DNA from: an uncultured Chromatium sp.
GTDB lineage: Bacteria; Pseudomonadota; Gammaproteobacteria; Chromatiales; Chromatiaceae
Assembly: GCA_903897335.1 (NCBI GenBank)
Contig: CAIUAY010000096.1
Span: 1 to 42,874, forward strand
Direction: 5' to 3'
Length of the DNA: 42,874 nucleotides
In this document: piece after piece, positions 1 through 20,687 of the stretch
Numbering within the stretch: position 1 is the stretch's first letter
Layout of the letters: every line of letters starts with the position of its first letter
Translations under genes and position numbers: made by a program
Notes under the pieces: generated by a model
Databases searched by the model: none
Told to the model about the DNA's origin: nothing
The model's input: only the letters and a program-made list of their open reading frames with translations

Positions 1-68
1 ACATCCTCGAAACCGGCAACGACTCTTACCGGTTCAAGCAACGCAAAAAGGCCAATCAGACCCTCTGA
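1..68 (+). CDS. IstB-like IS21-family helper ATPase, C-terminal end only
   Basis: The window opens inside a reading frame (codons from base 3) that ends at a TGA at 66-68. The last residues, ILETGNDSYRFK followed by a basic tail, match the usual C-terminus of IstB-type AAA+ helper proteins of IS21-family elements (family knowledge: the hisILETGNxSwRFK ending). Only about 21 residues are visible, so whether the upstream gene is intact cannot be judged. Bases 69-182 hold no gene I can support. Confidence 0.6.
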   Translation, partial: ILETGNDSYRFKQRKKANQTL

Positions 69-182
69 GTCGCTCGTTCAACTGGAAAAAATTCGATGTT
101 GATGCCTGGTAACTTTTGGATGGTGATTGACAAGATCGCCGCCTTGGAGTCTCCGCTCAGACATGCCCGGTTCCGGTTTTGT

Positions 183-1346
183 TTACAGAGCCAACGCGGT
201 CAGCGTGGCATTGTGGGTGGCGAGTACGCCGACCGTTCGCGCAAATTCCCCACAGCAATAGAAGCCAAGGGTCGGCACAGCGCCGGCTGCCGCCTGCAGC
301 CGCTCGGCCTCCTCTGGCGTGCGATCGTGGAAGATCTGGGCGCGGGCGGCACAACTGAAGGCCAGCAAGACGCCGGGCTCAGGATGTCCCTCAAGGGCGG
401 TGTGCACGACCTCATCGACGACCGCGAGCAGGGTATCCGCGTTCCCTGTCATCACCTGCACGGCGCTGCCGGCTGGGGGGACGCAACCCTGAATCCGCAG
501 CGTGCCTTCCTGCGTTTTCGCGCGCGCGACCCGAATCACGGTCGAACCGTCGCATTGGAGCAACCCGAAGGGGTGATTGATCGAAGTGCCCCAGAAATCT
601 TCGGTGCTCAACTCGCCGAGACCAAGTCCGAGCTGTTCTTCATACGCCGTGACGGCCGGGCGTCCGCCAAGCTCCATCACGGTCGTGCCCTCGGCGCGCG
701 TCACCAGCAGCGGCACACCGACCGGCTCCCAGCCATGGCGGGTGACCACGGGTATGGGATGGTCGCTGGCAATCCAGAGGGCGACGGCGCCTTCCTCGAC
801 CACCTGGTCGTCATGGAAGACGTAGGTCGCGATGAATTTCAGCTCGTCTCCGGCAGCTCCGCCGACGATCCCGACCTTGGGACCCGTAATGCGATAGACA
901 CCCTGCGCAAGCTGCTGCAGATCACCAAGCAGTGCGTCGGCGAGCAGGAGCACCGCCGCATGCGGGCTGGCGCCCGCCTCCGCCCGGCTCGCGCGGGCGA
1001 TCTCTTGCCCGGCCTGATCCATCCGATCCTTGATGTGGCTTGCTGAGGCGACACCGAAGCGGTACCCACCGCCGCTGAGCGCCAGCACCACGACCCCGGC
1101 GCCGTATCCCATAAACTGACCCTGCACCATCTCGCCGGAGGTGGTGGCACCGATCAGGTGGGCCTCACCGGTGACAGAGCGAATTCCAGCCAGCAGCGCC
1201 GGCAGATCGTACCTGGGCGTCGTGAACACAATGAGGAGCGCGGGCGCGTCGCCCGCGAGGGCAGCGACCGCCTCCCTGGCGGCGGCTCTGCCTGCCTCAT
1301 CCGCCTCGTCGGCAGTGCTTGCACCGGTTCCGGCTCGAACCTTCAT
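183..1346 (-). CDS. FIST domain sensory protein
   Basis: The 387-residue protein is an FIST N plus FIST C protein. FIST is a predicted small-ligand sensor domain found with signalling genes. Features that fit are the early 'LLIVFTTPRYD' strand, the 'GATTSGEMVQG' motif, the 'VGIVGGAAGDEL' motif near the middle, and a C-terminal half with 'VLLAFSCAARAQIF' and 'GFYCCGEF', which are typical FIST C elements. There is no signal peptide or transmembrane segment, so it is probably cytoplasmic. The ATG has a good ribosome binding site (GAGGAG nine bases upstream). It is the last gene of a leftward operon, 131 bases after the EIIC-EAL gene. I infer that it passes a ligand signal to the c-di-GMP enzymes encoded upstream; the ligand is unknown (amino acids have been proposed for the family). 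Confidence 0.85.
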   Translation of the reverse strand: MKVRAGTGASTADEADEAGRAAAREAVAALAGDAPALLIVFTTPRYDLPALLAGIRSVTGEAHLIGATTSGEMVQGQFMGYGAGVVVLALSGGGYRFGVASASHIKDRMDQAGQEIARASRAEAGASPHAAVLLLADALLGDLQQLAQGVYRITGPKVGIVGGAAGDELKFIATYVFHDDQVVEEGAVALWIASDHPIPVVTRHGWEPVGVPLLVTRAEGTTVMELGGRPAVTAYEEQLGLGLGELSTEDFWGTSINHPFGLLQCDGSTVIRVARAKTQEGTLRIQGCVPPAGSAVQVMTGNADTLLAVVDEVVHTALEGHPEPGVLLAFSCAARAQIFHDRTPEEAERLQAAAGAVPTLGFYCCGEFARTVGVLATHNATLTALAL

Positions 1347-1477
1347 GACTGTTTGCTCCTCTTCATTCGTGTGGGGTCTTAGCCGCGCCCAGAGTGAAAA
1401 CGTCGTTTTGCAGCTTTCCCAGCGTTGTAGCCGCCACGGGCGATTGGTTTGCGTGGTTTAGTGTCAGCAATGCGCCT

Positions 1478-3727
1478 TCAAACGGTCTCTCGCGAGACCA
1501 TGACTGAGCGATCACCAGCGCTGGGGACGCCTATCGGCTGCGTGTTCTTCTGCCTTGCGCCAATGAATCTCAGACAATCGCCAGGCGCGAGCGGTCGGCT
1601 GAAGAGATAGCCCTGAAAGGTGTCACACCCCAGCGCGAGAAATCGCGTCAATTGGGTGTCGAGCTCGACGCCCTCGACGATGGTAAGGATCCCGAGGGAT
1701 CGGCTCAACTCGTTAATGCTGCGCACGATGTGTTCGTTGAGGCCGCCCGGGCCGCCGCATGTCAGGGAGCGATCGATCTTGACCGTATCGATCGGTAGCT
1801 CTTGCAGATAACGCAGTGAGGCATGCCCCATGCCGAAGTCGTCAATCGCGATGCGAATACCCATCCCGCGCAACTGTCGCAGGGAGTCCAGCGCGAGCCT
1901 GTCCGGGATGAGCACCGTCGATTCGGTGATTTCGAGTTCGAGCAGATGCGGGGCAAGCCCACTCTGCTCCAGGACCGCGATCACGGTGCGTGCGAAGGTC
2001 GGGCTCAACAGTTGTCGTGGCGACACGTTGACCGAGAGGATCAGCGCGTCCGGCACCTGTCCACGCCAGGCCGCCCGCTGAGCGCAGGCAGCGGCGAGGA
2101 CGAAGGCGCCGAGCCGGTCGATCAGGCCCATGTCCTCTGCGATGGCCACGGTCACCGGCGGCGGGACGCGTCCATAGATGGGATGGCTCCAACGCAACAG
2201 CGCCTCGACCCCGTGCACGGCGTCTTCCTTGGCGCCGATCTGCGGCTGGTATTCGAGGAAGAGCTGGAGGTTTCCCTTGAGCGCGAGGGCAAGATCTTCG
2301 GCCAATGCCTTCGCCAGCCGACCTTCGTCCCCTGGTCGATCGAGGCACTTGCGGCCGCCGATCCCGGTCTCGCTGCTTTCTGCGGCGCGCAGGAGCCCGC
2401 TCAGAACACGCTTGCCACGGTGCTCGCGTACGCGGTCGGAGAGGCGCACAAAGGGGATGTAGATGATCGTCCCCAATGCGAGATTGATCAGCTGCATGAC
2501 CACTCCAGAGGCGGAGCCGGTCGCGACGAATCCGCTAATCAGGGGCGGTGTCGTCCAGGGCATCACGGTCGTCGTATGGGGAACCAGATTGAGCGCTGTC
2601 GCGCCAAACGCCGTTAAGGTCTGGATCACGGGCGTGAGGAGGAAGGGAATGAGGTAGCTCGGATTCAGAATCAGCGGAATGCCGAACAGGAGCGGCTCGT
2701 TCACATTGAAGAGTGCCGGGAAGAGTGCGAAGACCGCGAGCTTACGGCTGCCGACGTCACGACTGGCGAAGAGGATGGCGATGATGAGGCAGAGCGAGCT
2801 GCCCGAGCCACCGAGTCGTGCAAAGGCATCGATGAAGGACTTGGTGACGATGAAGACTGGCTCGCCGCCCGACTGCAGCGCGGCGGCATTCACAAGCCCA
2901 GCCGGGATGAGCAGATGCTCCTCGACGGCAAAGAGCAGGTTGGGGCCATGGGCGCCAAAGAACCACAGGATCTGGGACAGGCTCACATAAGCAAGTCCGG
3001 TGCCAAGACTGCTGCCGGCCTCCGTGAACGGATGTCCCACCCACTCGCGCGTACTCGCATACAGATCACCCACTCCAGCCGCCGTGAGCGCCCATTGCAG
3101 GCCGCCAAAGCAGAGGATCGTAAGCATGCCCGCCGGCATGACCGTCATGACATCGCGCACCACCGGATCGCTGCCCATCATCCGGAACGGCAGCTGCAGC
3201 CACTCGATCCGAGCCAGACGCAGGAAGATCCAGGAACCGAGCGTGGCAACGCCCATTGCCACCAGCAATCCGCGGTTCAGCGAAAAGTGCTCGCGCCATA
3301 TCGCCGTATCACCCGGCGCAGTGATCACGAAAAAGCACGACAACACCACGACCGCCGCCATGATCGGGCTGACAAGGGGGCCAGAATGGCGTTGGTTGTA
3401 GAGCGTCGCCATGGTTCCGCTCAGTGCGCACAGCAACGCGAGCGAGGCGATGCCGAACGAGCCGTCGATCAGGTTGCCGCACCGGATCCGCCACTGCGGA
3501 CCGAAGGCGGCGTCGAGCATCTGCTGGACGCTGGCGGACGGGAAGTCCCGGATCAGGATAGCGAGGGCACCGACCATGATCAGCGGCAGAACCAGTACCA
3601 GTCCGCGTTGAATGGCCAGAAACAGCGGTTGATTGCCCGATTCGATGAGCAGATCCAACACCGCCTGCCGGGAGTCCCAACGCGCTCGCGTAAGACTGGC
3701 CGCACACGAGAAGGGGCTGCCGTTCAT
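1478..3727 (-). CDS. PTS EIIC-like membrane domain fused to EAL c-di-GMP phosphodiesterase
   Basis: This 749-residue fusion has an N-terminal polytopic domain (about 30-430) like the lactose/cellobiose family of PTS IIC permeases, including the conserved NEPLLFGIPLILNP segment (343-356) and a 'HGPNLLF' loop near 260. A cytoplasmic EAL domain covers about 470-740. The catalytic set appears complete: EALLRW (508-513), Asn567, ELEITES (597-603), the DDFG pair (629-630), Lys650 and a later EGVE, so c-di-GMP hydrolysis is likely. No IIA or IIB domain is present, so the IIC part is probably a sugar sensor and not a transporter; that is inference. Its ATG overlaps the stop of the cyclase gene (ATGA), which implies translational coupling. 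This IIC/EAL architecture is known from other gammaproteobacteria. Confidence 0.92.
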   Translation of the reverse strand: MNGSPFSCAASLTRARWDSRQAVLDLLIESGNQPLFLAIQRGLVLVLPLIMVGALAILIRDFPSASVQQMLDAAFGPQWRIRCGNLIDGSFGIASLALLCALSGTMATLYNQRHSGPLVSPIMAAVVVLSCFFVITAPGDTAIWREHFSLNRGLLVAMGVATLGSWIFLRLARIEWLQLPFRMMGSDPVVRDVMTVMPAGMLTILCFGGLQWALTAAGVGDLYASTREWVGHPFTEAGSSLGTGLAYVSLSQILWFFGAHGPNLLFAVEEHLLIPAGLVNAAALQSGGEPVFIVTKSFIDAFARLGGSGSSLCLIIAILFASRDVGSRKLAVFALFPALFNVNEPLLFGIPLILNPSYLIPFLLTPVIQTLTAFGATALNLVPHTTTVMPWTTPPLISGFVATGSASGVVMQLINLALGTIIYIPFVRLSDRVREHRGKRVLSGLLRAAESSETGIGGRKCLDRPGDEGRLAKALAEDLALALKGNLQLFLEYQPQIGAKEDAVHGVEALLRWSHPIYGRVPPPVTVAIAEDMGLIDRLGAFVLAAACAQRAAWRGQVPDALILSVNVSPRQLLSPTFARTVIAVLEQSGLAPHLLELEITESTVLIPDRLALDSLRQLRGMGIRIAIDDFGMGHASLRYLQELPIDTVKIDRSLTCGGPGGLNEHIVRSINELSRSLGILTIVEGVELDTQLTRFLALGCDTFQGYLFSRPLAPGDCLRFIGARQKNTQPIGVPSAGDRSVMVSRETV

Positions 3728-4770
3728 CCGATCGTCACCCGGTTACGTCCGGCCCCCTTAGACTGGTAGAGCGCGTCGTCAGCGCGCTTGATCAGCTCCT
3801 CGAGCCTGGGACGCGCATGTCCACGTATGCTGGCTGTCCCCAGGCTGATGGTGACGGTGAGGGCTTGGGGCGGTTCCGCGCCGATCTTGATCGGGTTTTC
3901 GGCGATGATCCGACGCAGGCGCTCAGCCGCTTGTTCGACGTCTTCCGCGCCGCACGGATAGAGGACGAACAGGAACTCTTCTCCGCCATAGCGTCCCAGG
4001 CTGTCGCTGGAGAAGGTGTGCGCACGTAGCCTGCGCGACACCTCACGCAGCACCTCATCACCGGTGAGGTGGCCATGGCTGTCGTTGATGACCTTAAAGA
4101 AATCGATGTCGGCCAGGATGATGCTGAGCGGCTCGCCGCAAGCGGCCGCATGCGCGAGCTGCGTGTCGAGACGCTCGATGATGGCGCCACGGTTCAGAAG
4201 TCCGGTCAGGGCATCGCGGCTCGCCTTGTCGACGAGGGCGTTCATGGCCTGTCGGCGCAGCTCAATACTGGACAGGCGATCGGTCAAGTGGCTGCCGAAG
4301 AGTCGGATGAACTTGACGTCCAGCTCGTTGAACGGCTCGTGGCGTGCGGCGGCGCTGAGAAGCCCTGTGCACTGCCCCAGACGGACAAAGGGCAGCACCT
4401 GGATATCGGTGATCGCTTTGCCCGCCAGGTGCTCGGGTGGGAATGGTGGCTCGATCAACTCCGCCGGCCTGACCAGGCGTGGTTTCTGGTGGGACAGGTG
4501 CCAGGCGTCCCAGGCGTCGAGCGTTCGGACGTTCGCCAGGTGCGCCTCCCCGCGAGCGCCGTCGATGACCTGGAAGCCCTCATCCTTGGGTAGCAGGAGC
4601 CGCCAGCAGGTGACATTGGCAAAGTATTTCCAATGCCGCGCGACCCGGCGCGCGATCTCCTCAATGCTCTCGGTCTGCTGAATCTCGTCGAGCAGCTTGA
4701 AGACGGCCTCGTACCGCACGAGCTGCTGCGTGGTGCGCTCCTGCCAGGGCGAGGTCAGATTCGTATCCAT
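3724..4770 (-). CDS. GAF-like/GGDEF diguanylate cyclase
   Basis: The 348-residue protein has a GAF-like sensor region (about 30-170) and a GGDEF domain (about 180-345) with DALTGLLNR (187-195), DIDFFK (221-226) and an intact GGEEF signature (262-266), so it should make c-di-GMP from two GTP. The product-inhibition I-site (RxxD, five residues before GGEEF) is absent: the matching residues are F253-S-S-D256. The enzyme may therefore lack normal feedback inhibition. It lies 21 bases downstream of the AhpD-like gene and overlaps the EIIC-EAL gene by four bases, so the cyclase and its opposing phosphodiesterase are made together. No membrane segments are seen. Confidence 0.93.
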   Translation of the reverse strand: MDTNLTSPWQERTTQQLVRYEAVFKLLDEIQQTESIEEIARRVARHWKYFANVTCWRLLLPKDEGFQVIDGARGEAHLANVRTLDAWDAWHLSHQKPRLVRPAELIEPPFPPEHLAGKAITDIQVLPFVRLGQCTGLLSAAARHEPFNELDVKFIRLFGSHLTDRLSSIELRRQAMNALVDKASRDALTGLLNRGAIIERLDTQLAHAAACGEPLSIILADIDFFKVINDSHGHLTGDEVLREVSRRLRAHTFSSDSLGRYGGEEFLFVLYPCGAEDVEQAAERLRRIIAENPIKIGAEPPQALTVTISLGTASIRGHARPRLEELIKRADDALYQSKGAGRNRVTIG

Positions 4771-4791
4771 GATCTGATCTTGGGACAGGCC

Positions 4792-5352
4792 TCAGAGAAT
4801 CGCCCGATAGTTTGGATCCAGATCCAACTTCAAGGCGCTGGTGTAGATGTTGAACATGGACGCCAGATCGATGACCGCGATGATTTCGCAGATCTCCTCC
4901 CGGCTGAAGCCCTCGTCCATCAGCGCCTCGAAGTCCTCGTCGGTGACCTGATTGGCATCGGCAACGACTTTTTCAGCGAAGGCGACGACGTGTGCGTAAT
5001 AGGGCGGCAGATTGCTTTCCGTGCCCGCTTTGACGAATGAGCCCAAATCCTCGAATGTCAGCGCCTTGTCCAGACTCAGGACGTTCTGGGCATGGCACGC
5101 CGAGCAGTAGCGCGCACCGTGTCTGGCCGATACGACAAAGACGATCATCTCCTTCAGGGGTAATGGCAGGCTTCCACTGAAGAGCGTCCCCTTGGCGCGT
5201 TCCCAATAGGCGCGGGCGAGCGGTGCGCTGTGCCCAAGGCTTTGCATCCAGATCGGGACGGCGCTCTCTCCGGTCGTGCGCATGAAGTCGTCATAGACTT
5301 CGCGTGTTTCGGAAGAGGCGTCGTTATAGTCGGTTAAAATGTAGCGTTGCAT
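4792..5352 (-). CDS. AhpD-like / carboxymuconolactone decarboxylase family protein
   Basis: The 186-residue protein belongs to the AhpD-like, peroxidase-related branch of the carboxymuconolactone decarboxylase family. The redox motif CSACHAQN (Cys83, Cys86) follows a helix 'LPLKEMIVFVVSARHGARY', as in family members that use a CxxC pair to reduce peroxides. The C-terminal half is helical ('EEICEIIAVIDLASMFNIY'), also typical. The ATG at 5352 is preceded by an AGGA stretch. It is the first gene of the leftward signalling operon and is divergent from an AraC-type regulator, which probably controls it. The substrate is unknown. A redox cue feeding the downstream c-di-GMP enzymes is possible but not shown. 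Confidence 0.85.
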   Translation of the reverse strand: MQRYILTDYNDASSETREVYDDFMRTTGESAVPIWMQSLGHSAPLARAYWERAKGTLFSGSLPLPLKEMIVFVVSARHGARYCSACHAQNVLSLDKALTFEDLGSFVKAGTESNLPPYYAHVVAFAEKVVADANQVTDEDFEALMDEGFSREEICEIIAVIDLASMFNIYTSALKLDLDPNYRAIL

Positions 5353-5593
5353 GTCTCAAGTGTCCTGTGTGATAAAAATCCATGACGACCTTAAGCCGCG
5401 CTCAGCGTGCCCAGTTTGTGCTTACTTCTGCCATGTGGTTGTTTTTGCCCCGCAAGCATCTTGAAAGGCAGAGATCACAAAAATCTTCGTTGTCAAATAC
5501 TAAAGAGATCTGAAGCAGGCCAACACCTATCACCTAAGACTAGCGCAGCCATGAAGGTCTTGAATATGCAGTTTTCGCAAAATCGGTTGGTTG

Positions 5594-6604
5594 ATGATGG
5601 CCCGTGATGATCGCATCATACCGCCCAAGATACAGCCGAGCGCCCCACCGCTAATCGGCTCGCTGGAAGTGGACGATCCGGTCCTCTACGAGGAGTTCGC
5701 CAGGCCGTGGGACTTGTGCGTCACGCCGACGACAGCGGGTCTGTTCCTCCATCGCAAGACGTTCCTGCTCACGCCCGCCTTCGTCCTGCAAGAGGAGTCA
5801 TTCCAGTGCCCCTTCCGCGTTTTTGGGATGACGCCACCCGGACTGCTCGGATTCGCTGTCCCGATTCGCCTCGATCGACGCAGCACCTTCTGGAACGCCC
5901 CGCTGCACGAACGTGGGCTTCCCGCCTCGCTCCCCGGTGCACTGGACGCGAATATCGGCGCCGGGCAGAGCCATCTCATCGTCCTCATCAGCCTGGATTT
6001 CATCTATCGGACGCTCGCCCCCGACGTGGCATCGGCGCTGGTGTCCGCTGCCATGACCCGCTTGCTGCCGGCCTCGGACATCAAGATCGATAGATTGAAG
6101 CGCCTGCTCCTGTGCACGCTGCGGCAGACCCACCGCAGGCCGATGATGCTGGAGTACCCCGCCGTCTTGCGCGCCCTGGAGACAAACCTGCTTGCGCGCC
6201 TGCTGGACACGATCGCGTTGCCCGGCTTGCGCGCCGGTCACCGTCCAGCGCCCGTCAAGCGGCAACGGGGCCTCGATCGGGCGCTGGAGTTTCTGCGCGA
6301 CGCCGACCTGGCCGGCCTCAGCGTCCCACAGCTCTGCGGCGCATCCGGCGTCAGTCAGCGCACCCTGGAGTACGCCTTCCTCGAGACCTACGGCATGACG
6401 CCATTGGCGTTCCTGCGGCGCTGGCGGCTCCATGCCGTGCGCCGCCAGCTCATGTGTCCACCAGCCGGTGGCCTGACCATCACGCAGGCCGCTTACAGCG
6501 AGGGCTTCTATCAACTAGGGCGTTTCGCTGCGGAGTACCGGCTGCTGTTCGGCGAGCGGCCGCTGGAGACCCTGCGACGGTCGCCGCGATTGCGATCCGG
6601 TTAA
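5594..6604 (+). CDS. AraC-family transcriptional regulator
   Basis: The protein (about 336 residues) has an N-terminal ligand-binding-like domain (about 1-200) and a C-terminal AraC/XylS double helix-turn-helix. The second part is clear: 'LDRALEFLRDADLAGLSVPQLC' leads into 'GVSQRTLEYAFLETYGMTPLAFLRRWRL', then 'ITQAAYSEGFYQLGRFAAEYRLLFGERP', a standard second HTH and the GxxP-type ending. Start codons at 5591 (TTG), 5594 and 5597 (ATG) are all possible and none has a clear ribosome binding site. The gene is divergent from the AhpD/c-di-GMP operon across about 240 bases, so that operon is its most likely target, perhaps together with autoregulation. Confidence 0.88.
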   Translation: MMARDDRIIPPKIQPSAPPLIGSLEVDDPVLYEEFARPWDLCVTPTTAGLFLHRKTFLLTPAFVLQEESFQCPFRVFGMTPPGLLGFAVPIRLDRRSTFWNAPLHERGLPASLPGALDANIGAGQSHLIVLISLDFIYRTLAPDVASALVSAAMTRLLPASDIKIDRLKRLLLCTLRQTHRRPMMLEYPAVLRALETNLLARLLDTIALPGLRAGHRPAPVKRQRGLDRALEFLRDADLAGLSVPQLCGASGVSQRTLEYAFLETYGMTPLAFLRRWRLHAVRRQLMCPPAGGLTITQAAYSEGFYQLGRFAAEYRLLFGERPLETLRRSPRLRSG

Positions 6605-6698
6605 TTCTGTTGAGCCGCTGGGCGTAGCGGTGTCCTCACATCTGTTGCACGGCCAGGAGACGTTCGTGTTCGCCGATGCCAGCTAGACCGGCGCCCCC

Positions 6699-6842
6699 GT
6701 GGCGCATCCGTTCCACGTCGTCACGAATCTGGTCGGCCATCGCAAGGCTCGGTATCAAGGGCTGGCGAAGAACGTCGCTCAATTGCACACCCTTTTCGCC
6801 CTGGCGAGTCGGGTGCGCGTGAAGCAGGCGCTCTTGGCCTAA
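6699..6842 (+). pseudogene. IS5-family transposase remnant (C-terminal 47 codons)
   Basis: A short frame starting VAHPFHVVTNLVGHRKARYQ and continuing GLAKNVAQLHTLFALAS to a TAA at 6840 is the conserved C-terminal end of IS5-type DDE transposases (the ExxFxxxKxxxxxRxRGLAKN region). In intact proteins the segment starts with Glu before HPF; here Ala is present and the upstream part is out of frame or missing. It is a decayed insertion-sequence fragment. Confidence 0.75.
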
Positions 6843-13848: not shown

Positions 13849-17828
<3,980 letters not shown>

Positions 17829-17832
<4 letters not shown>

Positions 17833-20687
17833 GTGTGAGTGAGGTTTATCGGTGTGAGGTGGATCGAGCTGCTATCCAGGGCGGTCCGCTCCAGCGCGGC
17901 GGCCAGTTCCAACGCATGTGGCGAGACGGCGCGCGCAAAGAGCCGTGAGCCGACGGGGGCGGCGGGGAAATCCTGCCGGAGTTTTTTGAGTTCTGGGTCG
18001 CCTTCGGTGAGACCCTGATGGGCACGGGGGCTGGCGGTCGCAAAGAGACTGAACACGCCTTGCTGCAAATGCCCCAATTCCTGCCATTGGCCGTAGGTCG
18101 TGCTAGGCGAAAGTACCGGCTCGAAACGCCCGCGACGCAGTCGTCCGACGAACCAAGCAAAGGGCGCTTGCCCATCGTGGCGGGTGCGCAGGTGGTCGAT
18201 CAGCAGCGTGTTCTCGCCCGGGACGAGACGCAGCAAACCGAGCGCCACGCCCGTCTTGGCCGTGGGCGAATGGGGGTTTTTCTCGTCCATCGGCAGCGGG
18301 GGATGCACGATGATCTCGGGTGGCTCGTCGCCGAAGGCTTGGTCGAGCAGTTTGGTCCAATGTTCGCCCGCGATGTCGAACAGCCCCTTGATGTAGCGCG
18401 AACGGCTGCCGTTGCCGGCCAGCAGCAGGTGGATCGGCGCCGAGTCAGGCAATTCCGCGCGCAGTCGGGCCAACTCGGCGAGGAATGCCTCCACCCCGCC
18501 GCGTATCCGGCTTTCCAGTAGCGCATTCAGTGCCTGGGCGTCGATTTTAAGCTCGCACTGCTTGATTGAGGTTCCGTCAGCGTCGATCAGATCGAGCTTG
18601 ATTTGCGTAAGTGGCTTGGGCGCTTCGTCTTCGAGGAACGGGCGTAGCGTGGCCGCGAATACGACGGTATTGGTCTGCGCCGCCTGGGTAGGCGCGAGAA
18701 AGGCCTCGCTGCCAGTGAACGGGTTGGCATCTAGCGGCTTGGTGAACTGAATGCGTTTTTCGCGCAGTACAGCGAGATTGTGCTGAAAGGCGATGTAAAC
18801 CAGGTGCTCGAGCAGATTTTCGCCACCCAGGAAATTATCGCCACCGCTGGCCAGATGTTCGAACACCCGCTCGTAGCCCTGCTGTTCTTCCGCGGGCGTG
18901 GCCCAGCGCAGGAGACCGAAGTCAAAATCGGTGGTGCCGCCGCCGAAGTCGAACACGGCGTAAGGCACTCCGGCCTCGGTCGGTTCCACTCCGAATTGCG
19001 GCAGGGCCGCGGCGGCATAGGCAGCCGGCTCGCTGGCCAGTTCCGACACCGCGAAGTCGTTGAGCACCTGCGGGTGGTATTCGATCAGCGTGTGCGGCAG
19101 GCTCCGCTGCAAGCCGCGACGGAAGCTCGCCAGGGTGCGGTCCTTGATTTCGCGCGGGTATTTGGCCGGAAAGCTGAGGTAGTACTTGAGGAACAGCCCG
19201 CGCCCGCGCCAGTTGATCGCCATACCCAGATACCAGGCATAAAGCTCGATGGGATCGAAAGGATTTTGGGCACCCGCCTCTAGCGGCTGGCCGCGCACAG
19301 GGTTGCGCTCGCTGTGCGGTGCCAGTTCGATGGCCCGCCCCTTGCCGTCAGTGATGCGCACGCGCCGATCCTCGCTGGAGCGCAGCGCCCATTGCTTGAG
19401 CCGGGGCAGGATACGGGCCAGCACCTCGGTCTTCCCTGGGTTGTCGCGATAGCTCTCCTGGGCTTCGTGGGCGGCGCGCACCCAGTCCCAATCGAGCGCC
19501 GGGCGGTAGGCATGCGCCGTCCAGGCGGCCTCGAAGGCCGTGAAGTCGATACATTCGAGCACGGTCGGGTTTTCAAAGTGCCGCGCCTTGACGTCCGCGT
19601 AGAAGTCGCGCACGCCGATGCGCAGGAGTTCGCGCGCACCGCTGGCGGTATCCATGGCTACCACCGTGCTGCTGGTGCCGAAGTCGATGGCCACGGCTCG
19701 ATGCTGCACGTCGCGCCCAGGATCGCGGGCGACGAGTCCGAAGCGCGCGAGCGTCGCCGGTTCGGTTCCCCAGAGTTCCCACACCCCCTTTTCGGGGTCG
19801 GTCAATTGCGCGCGGTCGAGTTTGGGCAGACGGCAGGGCGTGTAATCGAGATACTCCAATTGGTCGGTTGCGACAAAACGGTGAGGGTCGAGGCGCGTGT
19901 TTTTGTCATCGCCGGTGTCGTTGACGGCACCAAGGTCAATCCGCTCGTTCAGCATAGTCATCAGTAGTGCCTCGATTGACAGACCCTGCCAGCGTGAGTC
20001 GCTTTGGGGAGCAAAACCTTGCCCCTGCGGGGAGAGTAGACGCCAGGCTCGGGTCATCATGTCGGCCAGCATCTGGGCATCCGATGCATGCTTCCAGAAT
20101 AGGTTACAGGCGAAGATGTAGGCATCGCCTGAACTGATACCCCAGCAGCCATCGTCAACATCGCAGTGGCCTTCTACAGTTAGCCAGTGATAGGTTTCAC
20201 TGCCGGCGGCTATGGTCAAACGGTAAGCGCTTCCCTTTTGATGTGGATTATTGCTGGCGGTGGCAAAGGCCTGGAGTTGTGCTTTTGTCGGCAAGCGCCA
20301 GCCTTCCAACCCCGCCCAGCGCCCTTTGCTCACCAACTGCTTGCCATCCGCAAGCGAAAAGACGTTATTGCTGGTCTCGTTGTTCCACAGCAGACGGGTC
20401 TTGGTGTGCAGCGTGGCGAGGCGTTTGTTGTCCTTTAAGTGATGGACGAAGACGAAGGGATGCTGATCGAGAAAGACCCGCAGATTGGCAGCCGGCGGAT
20501 AGAGCAGACGGGTTTGCGTATCGAACAGACCGCTTGCCTTCCGAATATCGTTCTCGCCGTCGGGCAGGATGTGCCAGAAACGGCTGCGGGCAAGGCTGTC
20601 GGTGAACTCCGCCAAATTGTCGGCGTGGCGCGCTTCAAGATCGAAGGCGCGAGGGGAAGAGGCGTTGGGAAGCGTCATCGCGGTCAC
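17829..20687 (-). CDS. Lcl/DUF1566-like domain fused to Hsp70/actin-fold ATPase
   Basis: The 952-residue protein has two recognisable parts. Residues about 95-225 resemble the Lcl/DUF1566 fold: 'TRLLWNNET' and 'GLEGWRLPTKAQLQAF', then 'YHWLTVEGHCD' with a Cys-rich loop. From about 330 on there is an Hsp70/actin-like ATPase: phosphate 1 motif AIDFGTSSTVV (333-343), phosphate 2 motif VFDFGGGTTDFDFG (578-591), 'SGGDNFLGGENL' (614-625) and an adenosine motif 'IHLLLAGNGSRSRYI' (752-766). No DnaK-type substrate-binding domain is clear in the C-terminal 180 residues. Start: GTG at 20687 or ATG at 20678. It is the last of five genes in the leftward operon and overlaps hrpA. I infer an ATP-driven scaffold or chaperone acting with the HerA-like ATPase encoded upstream. 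Confidence 0.85.

Follow-up and report, generated by a model that had tools for sequence, protein, structure and literature searches.

A stretch of DNA from an uncultured Chromatium sp. (Chromatiaceae; GCA_903897335.1, contig CAIUAY010000096.1), 42,874 nucleotides long and called the window below, carries a gene in which a sugar-permease-like membrane domain of the phosphotransferase system (PTS) is fused to an EAL domain for the breakdown of cyclic di-GMP (c-di-GMP). The gene lies behind a diguanylate cyclase gene and an AhpD-like gene, and the locus raises the question of what a PTS permease domain does in a c-di-GMP enzyme. The best explanation, which we hold to be slightly better than an even bet, is a portable three-gene c-di-GMP cassette, in which an orphan PTS permease domain would serve as the transmembrane sugar receptor of a phosphodiesterase, opposed by a co-translated cyclase. 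In this view the sugar is probably read as a signal and not used as food.

A conserved three-gene cassette

Contig C96, which the window spans in full, belongs to a genome of 3.29 Mb with a completeness of 99.5%. Its cassette comprises the following features:

4792-5352, minus strand: cassette gene 1, AhpD-like protein of the carboxymuconolactone-decarboxylase family, 186 amino acids (aa) (PF02627, CMD, E 1.6e-08)
3724-4770, minus strand: cassette gene 2, diguanylate cyclase with a GGDEF domain and a weak GAF-like N-terminus (PF00990, E 2.6e-42)
1478-3727, minus strand: cassette gene 3, PTS_EIIC (ChbC or lactose-cellobiose type)-EAL fusion, 749 aa (PF02378, E 8e-21; PF00563, E 3.3e-64)
3724-3727, minus strand: ATGA overlap of the cyclase stop and the fusion ATG, read from the sequence
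1463-5354, minus strand: extent of the conserved three-gene cassette (blastn against loci L002 and L003)

The AhpD-like and cyclase genes are 21 bp apart, and 131 bp separate the fusion from a FIST-FIST_C gene. In Thiorhodococcus mannitoliphagus (L002), a member of the same family whose EIIC-EAL protein is 90% identical, the blastn match to the window covers only 1463-5354 (89.2%), and in Thiocystis violacea (L003), also of this family, only 1475-5365 (82.2%). Both loci hold the identical three genes in identical order with the 4-base overlap (8001-8004 in L002, 7938-7941 in L003). The flanks differ; a Rieske protein follows the cassette in one relative and an exosortase in the other. Because DNA conservation stops at the cassette edges in these two relatives, the conserved unit, judged by alignment, is the AhpD-like, cyclase and PTS_EIIC-EAL genes, a smaller one than first proposed.

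The initial annotation had described a c-di-GMP module of four leftward genes and a divergent AraC-type gene, and coordinates, strands and Pfam matches bear out that all five exist. The span it quoted, 1478-5352, matches the three-gene block and omits the FIST gene that it had counted as the fourth. Its coupled pair of c-di-GMP-making and c-di-GMP-breaking enzymes is upheld by the GGDEF and EAL domains and by the return of the overlap in the two relatives. The sugar-permease-like input stands as well, with PTS_EIIC above its cut-off and the fusion in the same place in both relatives, and so does the AhpD-like gene at the head, in the same order there. The check it had suggested, conservation of gene order, was run and gave a split result: the order of the AhpD-like, cyclase and fusion genes is kept in the two relatives, and that of the FIST and AraC-type genes is not.

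Within the family, 4 of 146 genomes hold the fusion (E <= 1e-100); the AhpD-like gene occurs in 6 (E <= 1e-20), each time with the cyclase right behind it. Three of these six genomes hold the trio, two hold the pair alone, and in Thiorhodococcus drewsii the pair is on one contig and the fusion on another. A genome of the same genus (G132) matches the window by blastn over the pair alone (3720-5353, 82.0%), close to a contig end. Since the pair also occurs alone, the fusion was gained, or lost, as a unit. Beyond the family, a class sample of 369 genomes yielded a single AhpD-like gene at E <= 1e-35, the window's own. In a family genome that lacks the fusion, a frame of 232 aa with no Pfam match (L101 3048-3746, minus strand) overlaps the cyclase end by 4 bases and sits where the window has the fusion.

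The PTS_EIIC-EAL fusion

Both halves of the fusion score above their cut-offs: PTS_EIIC (PF02378) reaches 74.9 bits against 30.7, and EAL (PF00563) 216.9 bits against 31.3. The lacE subfamily model TIGR00410 gives 229.3 bits, just under its cut-off of 236, and when the EIIC half is compared with PDB sequences the sole match is 3qnq, the diacetylchitobiose EIIC protein ChbC. A scan of 84,980 species genomes returned 223 relatives, and the analysis went on with the 80 best (79 loci); 75 of the 79 loci are full-length (the partial L065, L066, L073 and L078 were dropped), and with the window added 76 fusions were compared.

Residues W255, N341, E344 and W391 (ChbC W245, N331, E334 and W382) are invariant in all 76 fusions, which come from several phyla, and H260 (ChbC H250) is kept in 75. 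The sole fusion with another residue there is L059 1065-3329, in which Asn replaces the pocket His. The five ChbC residues W245, H250, N331, E334 and W382 presumably bind the sugar; what was computed here is the residue alignment, and a search for literature on these pocket residues found none. In the EAL half, E508, N567, E599, E602, D629, D630, K650 and E685, which we take to have catalytic roles, are present in 76 of 76 fusions, and Q705 is kept in 75 with one gap. As far as alignment can tell, the EIIC half thus keeps the pocket residues of ChbC and the EAL half those of a phosphodiesterase. In the T. drewsii fusion (L084), one TAG was counted inside the genome-search alignment; the called frame (L004 7992-10175) is open and encodes 727 aa.

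An AlphaFold2 model built from 50 fusion sequences has a mean predicted local distance difference test (pLDDT) score of 87.0 and a predicted TM-score (pTM) of 0.80. In this model, residues 406-450 form one unbroken helix that leaves the final EIIC segment in the direction of the EAL domain. Foldseek places 3qnq first among the matches of the model (E 9.8e-19, root-mean-square deviation (rmsd) 10.6), followed mainly by EAL phosphodiesterases, and VIA-align gives Z 27.0 with an rmsd of 11.3 over 329 residues of 3qnq. Given this large rmsd, parts of the EIIC domain are placed otherwise in the model than in the crystal, possibly owing to another transport state or to model error.

PTS partners in fusion-bearing genomes

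Searches for PTS_IIB and HPr covered 48 genomes, namely 47 hand-chosen locus genomes (short or repeated contigs and L024 were left out) and the window's own; PTS_EIIC was counted in 38, namely 37 of those 47 (G548-G557 were left out) and the own genome. The own genome has no PTS_IIB match in a search that did not include PF00367 and PF02255, while 7 of 14 control genomes match, and the fusion is its only PTS_EIIC (PF02378) match. On both grounds, the EIIC domain of the window's fusion looks like an orphan. The same pattern extends to relatives: PTS_IIB was not found in 31 of the 48 genomes, own included, and 23 of 38 contain no PTS_EIIC other than the fusion, none of these 23 having a PTS_IIB match.

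Porins beside related fusions

The neighbour scan of the fusion loci started from 139 frames, of which 30 were removed by hand (long, short or at contig edges, and one miscalled in L003). Frames were called mechanically (first start, longest frame), and the overlaps of porin frames are not all genuine. Among the remaining 109, OprD-family porins are the commonest neighbour family (12), followed by GGDEF proteins (7). Comparison of the proteins places an OprD-family porin next to 18 of the 75 full-length fusions, behind the fusion in 17 and in front of it in L030. Seventeen are of one ChiP-like type, while L025 has another:

L017 10112-11491: ChiP-like porin beside the fusion
L036 7349-8728: ChiP-like porin beside the fusion
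L063 10202-11803: ChiP-like porin beside the fusion
L045 5256-6713: ChiP-like porin beside the fusion
L030 6162-7739: ChiP-like porin beside the fusion
Further loci: others of the same type

The chitoporin ChiP model (NCBIfam NF047822) matches five of six scanned porins (E 8e-89 to 3e-112), L025 being the one without a match; at 298-376 bits against a cut-off of 750, the five are clear homologues, not equivalogs. In a quick tree, all 17 fusions linked to this type belong to a single clade with 19 members (L018 and L048 are the exceptions); the clade comprises Betaproteobacteria, some Desulfovibrio and Bilophila, and Phaeovibrio.

Searches for ChiP and for GH20 hexosaminidase used 40 genomes, the 38 of the PTS_EIIC count (again without G548-G557) and two relatives that lack the fusion. 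Nine of the 38 fusion genomes among them have a ChiP-model match, one each, always on the same contig and strand and directly beside the only PTS_EIIC, and PTS_IIB is found in none of the nine. ChiP of Escherichia coli carries chito-oligosaccharides, and the link therefore fits a ChbC-like receptor.

Cyclase and AhpD-like protein

The GGDEF domain of the cyclase scores 144.8 bits against a cut-off of 23.8, and its signature GGEEF stands at residues 262-266 in all three aligned homologues. The Arg position of the RxxD motif, which we take to be the inhibition site of such cyclases, is not Arg in any of the three, so feedback inhibition is doubtful. The N-terminus matches GAF_2 below the Pfam cut-off (E 0.0044, 17.7 bits against 28.6); a structure model from three sequences only, with a mean pLDDT of 34.5, is unusable for the GAF question. 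Fusions seem to have acquired cyclase partners on more than one occasion, as GGDEF proteins of a different kind precede the fusion in clostridial loci (L074 6674-7975, L079 6674-7975, L075 6594-7916 and L068 6308-7576), twice with an 11-base overlap.

The AhpD-like protein matches TIGR01926 below the cut-off (E 2.3e-14). The active site of AhpD peroxidases is presumably Glu...Cys-x-x-Cys-x-x-x-His. Aligned with 2prr, the protein has Ala in place of the first Cys of CxxC and retains the Glu, the second Cys and the His; an extra Cys directly before the His creates a shifted motif, C-S-A-C-H, identical in the window and five relatives (6 of 6). An ordinary AhpD peroxidase was rejected as its identity, the first active-site Cys being missing. 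A redox role is plausible.

Origin of the fusion

A quick tree (no bootstrap, long-branch warnings, midpoint root) puts the four family fusions in one group (100) within a group of 17 rows (100). The other 13 rows are 12 genomes labelled Deltaproteobacteria or of Desulfo-type genera and one Pleomorphomonas. The T. drewsii fusion, which has no adjacent cyclase, branches first among the four. On this topology, the simplest account is that the fusion was acquired horizontally and then joined to the AhpD-like/cyclase pair.

Such an origin leaves room for the view that only the AhpD-like protein and the cyclase form a functional unit, the fusion being a recent and loosely related arrival that shares their transcript. 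The pair occurs without an adjoining fusion in 3 of 6 genomes, and the grouping of the fusion with Deltaproteobacteria-type genomes looks like horizontal acquisition. The 4-base stop/start overlap, however, is kept in all three trios though their flanks are unrelated, and this alternative is judged unlikely, if still to be reckoned with.

Proposed mechanism and its alternatives

In the proposed cassette of sugar-receptor phosphodiesterase and opposing cyclase, the EIIC domain would no longer transport sugar by way of phosphorylation. It would bind a beta-linked disaccharide of the chitobiose or cellobiose type arriving from the periplasm, and the domain's change of conformation would travel along its long final helix (406-450 in the model) and alter c-di-GMP breakdown by the paired EAL domains in the cytoplasm. 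The co-translated cyclase would supply the opposing activity, tuned by its own N-terminal domain, and the redox state of the AhpD-like protein might tune the cyclase too. Two cues, sugar through the permease-like domain and a second one through the cyclase and the AhpD-like protein, would thus meet in one local c-di-GMP balance. The ligand, the receptor action, its direction and the interaction between the proteins are what we infer; activation of the phosphodiesterase by sugar is slightly favoured over inhibition, purely as a working assumption. A broader view, to which we give somewhat less than even weight, makes EIIC-EAL proteins a widespread class of sugar receptors derived from a PTS permease that is no longer served by a PTS; a chitoporin-like channel would deliver the sugar in one Gram-negative clade, and a Desulfobacterota-type fusion placed behind the pair would form a two-input switch in purple sulfur bacteria.

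Several observations weigh against a sugar receptor in such a cassette. The trio is found in only three genomes, and T. drewsii has its pair and fusion on different contigs. A ChiP-like porin is found neither in the own genome nor in its three fusion-bearing relatives. GH20 hexosaminidase occurs in 3 of the 40 genomes searched, with none in the own genome or the nine ChiP genomes, and chitobiose use is therefore unsupported; chitin catabolism was rejected as a support for the ligand on these counts. Among the 48 fusion genomes, 17 contain PTS_IIB, including those of T. violacea and T. drewsii, and HPr is found in 44, own included, so some phosphorelay exists; HPr is also expected for a nitrogen PTS. 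T. mannitoliphagus (G511), the nearest relative, lacks PTS_IIB, but a 710 aa frame in its genome carries a second PTS_EIIC not far from an 851 aa frame with HPr, so it probably operates a different type of sugar PTS. A further EIIC above the cut-off, again without PTS_IIB, is also present in G521 and in G533; in all three, a glucose-type EIIB (PF00367) may be present. The EIIB family PF00367, the EIIA family PF02255 and EIIC families beyond PF02378 lay outside the search, and several genomes are draft or metagenome assemblies, in which absence is weaker evidence than in complete genomes.

These partner counts bear directly on the possibility that the fusion still functions within a PTS, or facilitates sugar entry, and reports flux or phosphorylation state, with an EIIB of another family or the HPr relay serving it. 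We regard it as improbable. The HPr and PTS_IIB occurrences favour it, as does the second EIIC near HPr in T. mannitoliphagus, but PTS_IIB is missing from most of the genomes, own included, and EIIC is not itself the phosphorylated subunit of the PTS. T. violacea and T. drewsii each have two PTS_IIB stretches, which share frames of 599-660 aa with an EIIC and have an HPr-bearing 824 aa frame nearby; these look like a separate, self-contained fructose-type PTS. From the literature, the description of PTS_EIIC as a phosphoreceiver domain agrees with a working component (PMC8846402, in the part of the text available), and so does the control of Vibrio cholerae PdeS by phosphorylation of EIIA-Glc (PMC6877527, likewise in part).

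It is quite unlikely, too, that the EIIC half is a mere membrane anchor or dimerisation platform, with a constitutive EAL domain and no sugar bound. Many signalling enzymes use membrane domains as anchors, and the lack of PTS_IIB-family partners in 31 of 48 fusion genomes would suit one. An anchor does not need ChbC pocket residues, however, let alone W255, N341, E344 and W391 invariant in 76 of 76 fusions, and it does not need a chitoporin-like neighbour.

Genes beyond the cassette

Two further genes that the initial annotation had drawn into the circuit, FIST as an input and the AraC-type gene as its regulator, flank the cassette:

183-1346, minus strand: FIST-FIST_C gene, neighbour judged outside the module (PF08495, E 1.2e-40)
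5591-6604, plus strand: AraC-type regulator, divergent neighbour judged outside the module (PF12833, E 1e-16)

Joint action of the AhpD-like protein, cyclase, EIIC-EAL and FIST under the AraC regulator has the gene order of the window in its favour and is very improbable, for FIST and AraC lie outside the conserved block and are unlinked to the cassette in relatives, and the upstream DNA is not conserved; neither is supported as a part of the proposed circuit.

Neither gene stands beside the cassette in any of the sequenced stretches seen from five other genomes with cassette parts. FIST was rejected as the fourth cassette gene, as conservation ends at 1463 or 1475, before FIST, and close homologues are absent from all five related genomes; distant ones (24-29% identity) lie elsewhere in two of them. 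It was also rejected as a NosP protein, with 86.8 bits against the NCBIfam NF041558 cut-off of 450. AraC homologues occur in two of the five genomes, one of 79% in the same-genus genome (on C194, the pair being on C151) and one of 48% in G035 (on C10, the pair on C245). With its closest homologue on another contig than the pair, and upstream DNA that does not align, AraC is not supported as the cassette regulator. Both genes look like chance neighbours by this comparison.

The DNA upstream of the six AhpD-like genes shows no alignment beyond the start-codon region, and a shared promoter is unsupported. Within 1-6700, no sigma-70-like promoters were found against 1.3 expected, and four terminator-like sites against 3.7 expected (standard deviation 2.3), none of them in 1347-1477; these counts do not exceed those of shuffles.

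Elsewhere in the window, a remnant of an IS5-family transposase C-terminus lies downstream of AraC (6687-6839, plus strand; NF033581, E 1.8e-05, below cut-off). The end of a short open frame at 1-69 (plus strand) has no family match; it resembles, we assume, the C-terminus of an IS21-type IstB, and FIST may thus border on an insertion sequence where the contig ends. A helicase of 1327 aa with DUF3418 (13849-17832, minus strand), presumably HrpA-like, overlaps a 952 aa protein with a weak Lcl_C match (17829-20687, minus strand).

Relation to known systems and implications

The PTS_EIIC-EAL architecture is already in print, where, in the part of the text available, it is counted rare among c-di-GMP proteins and EIIC is called a phosphoreceiver (PMC8846402). 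The window's protein has in common with it both domains in one chain. In contrast to the phosphoreceiver description, the genome of the window has the fusion as its only PTS_EIIC and shows no PTS_IIB match, and the pocket residues are conserved, which points to a ligand receptor. The pairing of EIIC-EAL with an AhpD-like/cyclase operon does not appear in the available part of that source, in which the string 'ahpd' has 0 occurrences. A search of the open-licence literature found nothing on an orphan EIIC receptor or its porin neighbour.

Three known systems are close enough for comparison. Vibrio cholerae PdeS (VC1710) is a c-di-GMP phosphodiesterase governed in trans by EIIA-Glc phosphorylation (PMC6877527, from the portion available); sugar status controls a phosphodiesterase through PTS parts in that case as well, whereas in the window the phosphodiesterase and the permease domain form a single chain, in a genome without a PTS_IIB match. 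ChbC (3qnq) shares the fold and the pocket residues, but it lacks an EAL domain and is a transporter whose partners are EIIA and EIIB. The NosP and CdpA FIST proteins have the same domains as the FIST-FIST_C neighbour of the window (PMC8846402, available part); the neighbour differs in its low score against the NosP model, given above, and is not linked to the cassette in relatives.

If the proposed receptor function is true, a transport protein has been turned into a pure receptor, and sugar is read as information on the environment without PTS import. This would argue against the printed phosphoreceiver description of EIIC in such proteins and would give a testable ligand class to a group of c-di-GMP enzymes for which we know of no signal. 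The link to porins suggests that some bacteria, perhaps often from insect guts (to go by record names alone), may read fragments of chitin or cellulose in this way. Sugar would then directly control the amount of c-di-GMP, the messenger that governs the choice of swimming or settling.

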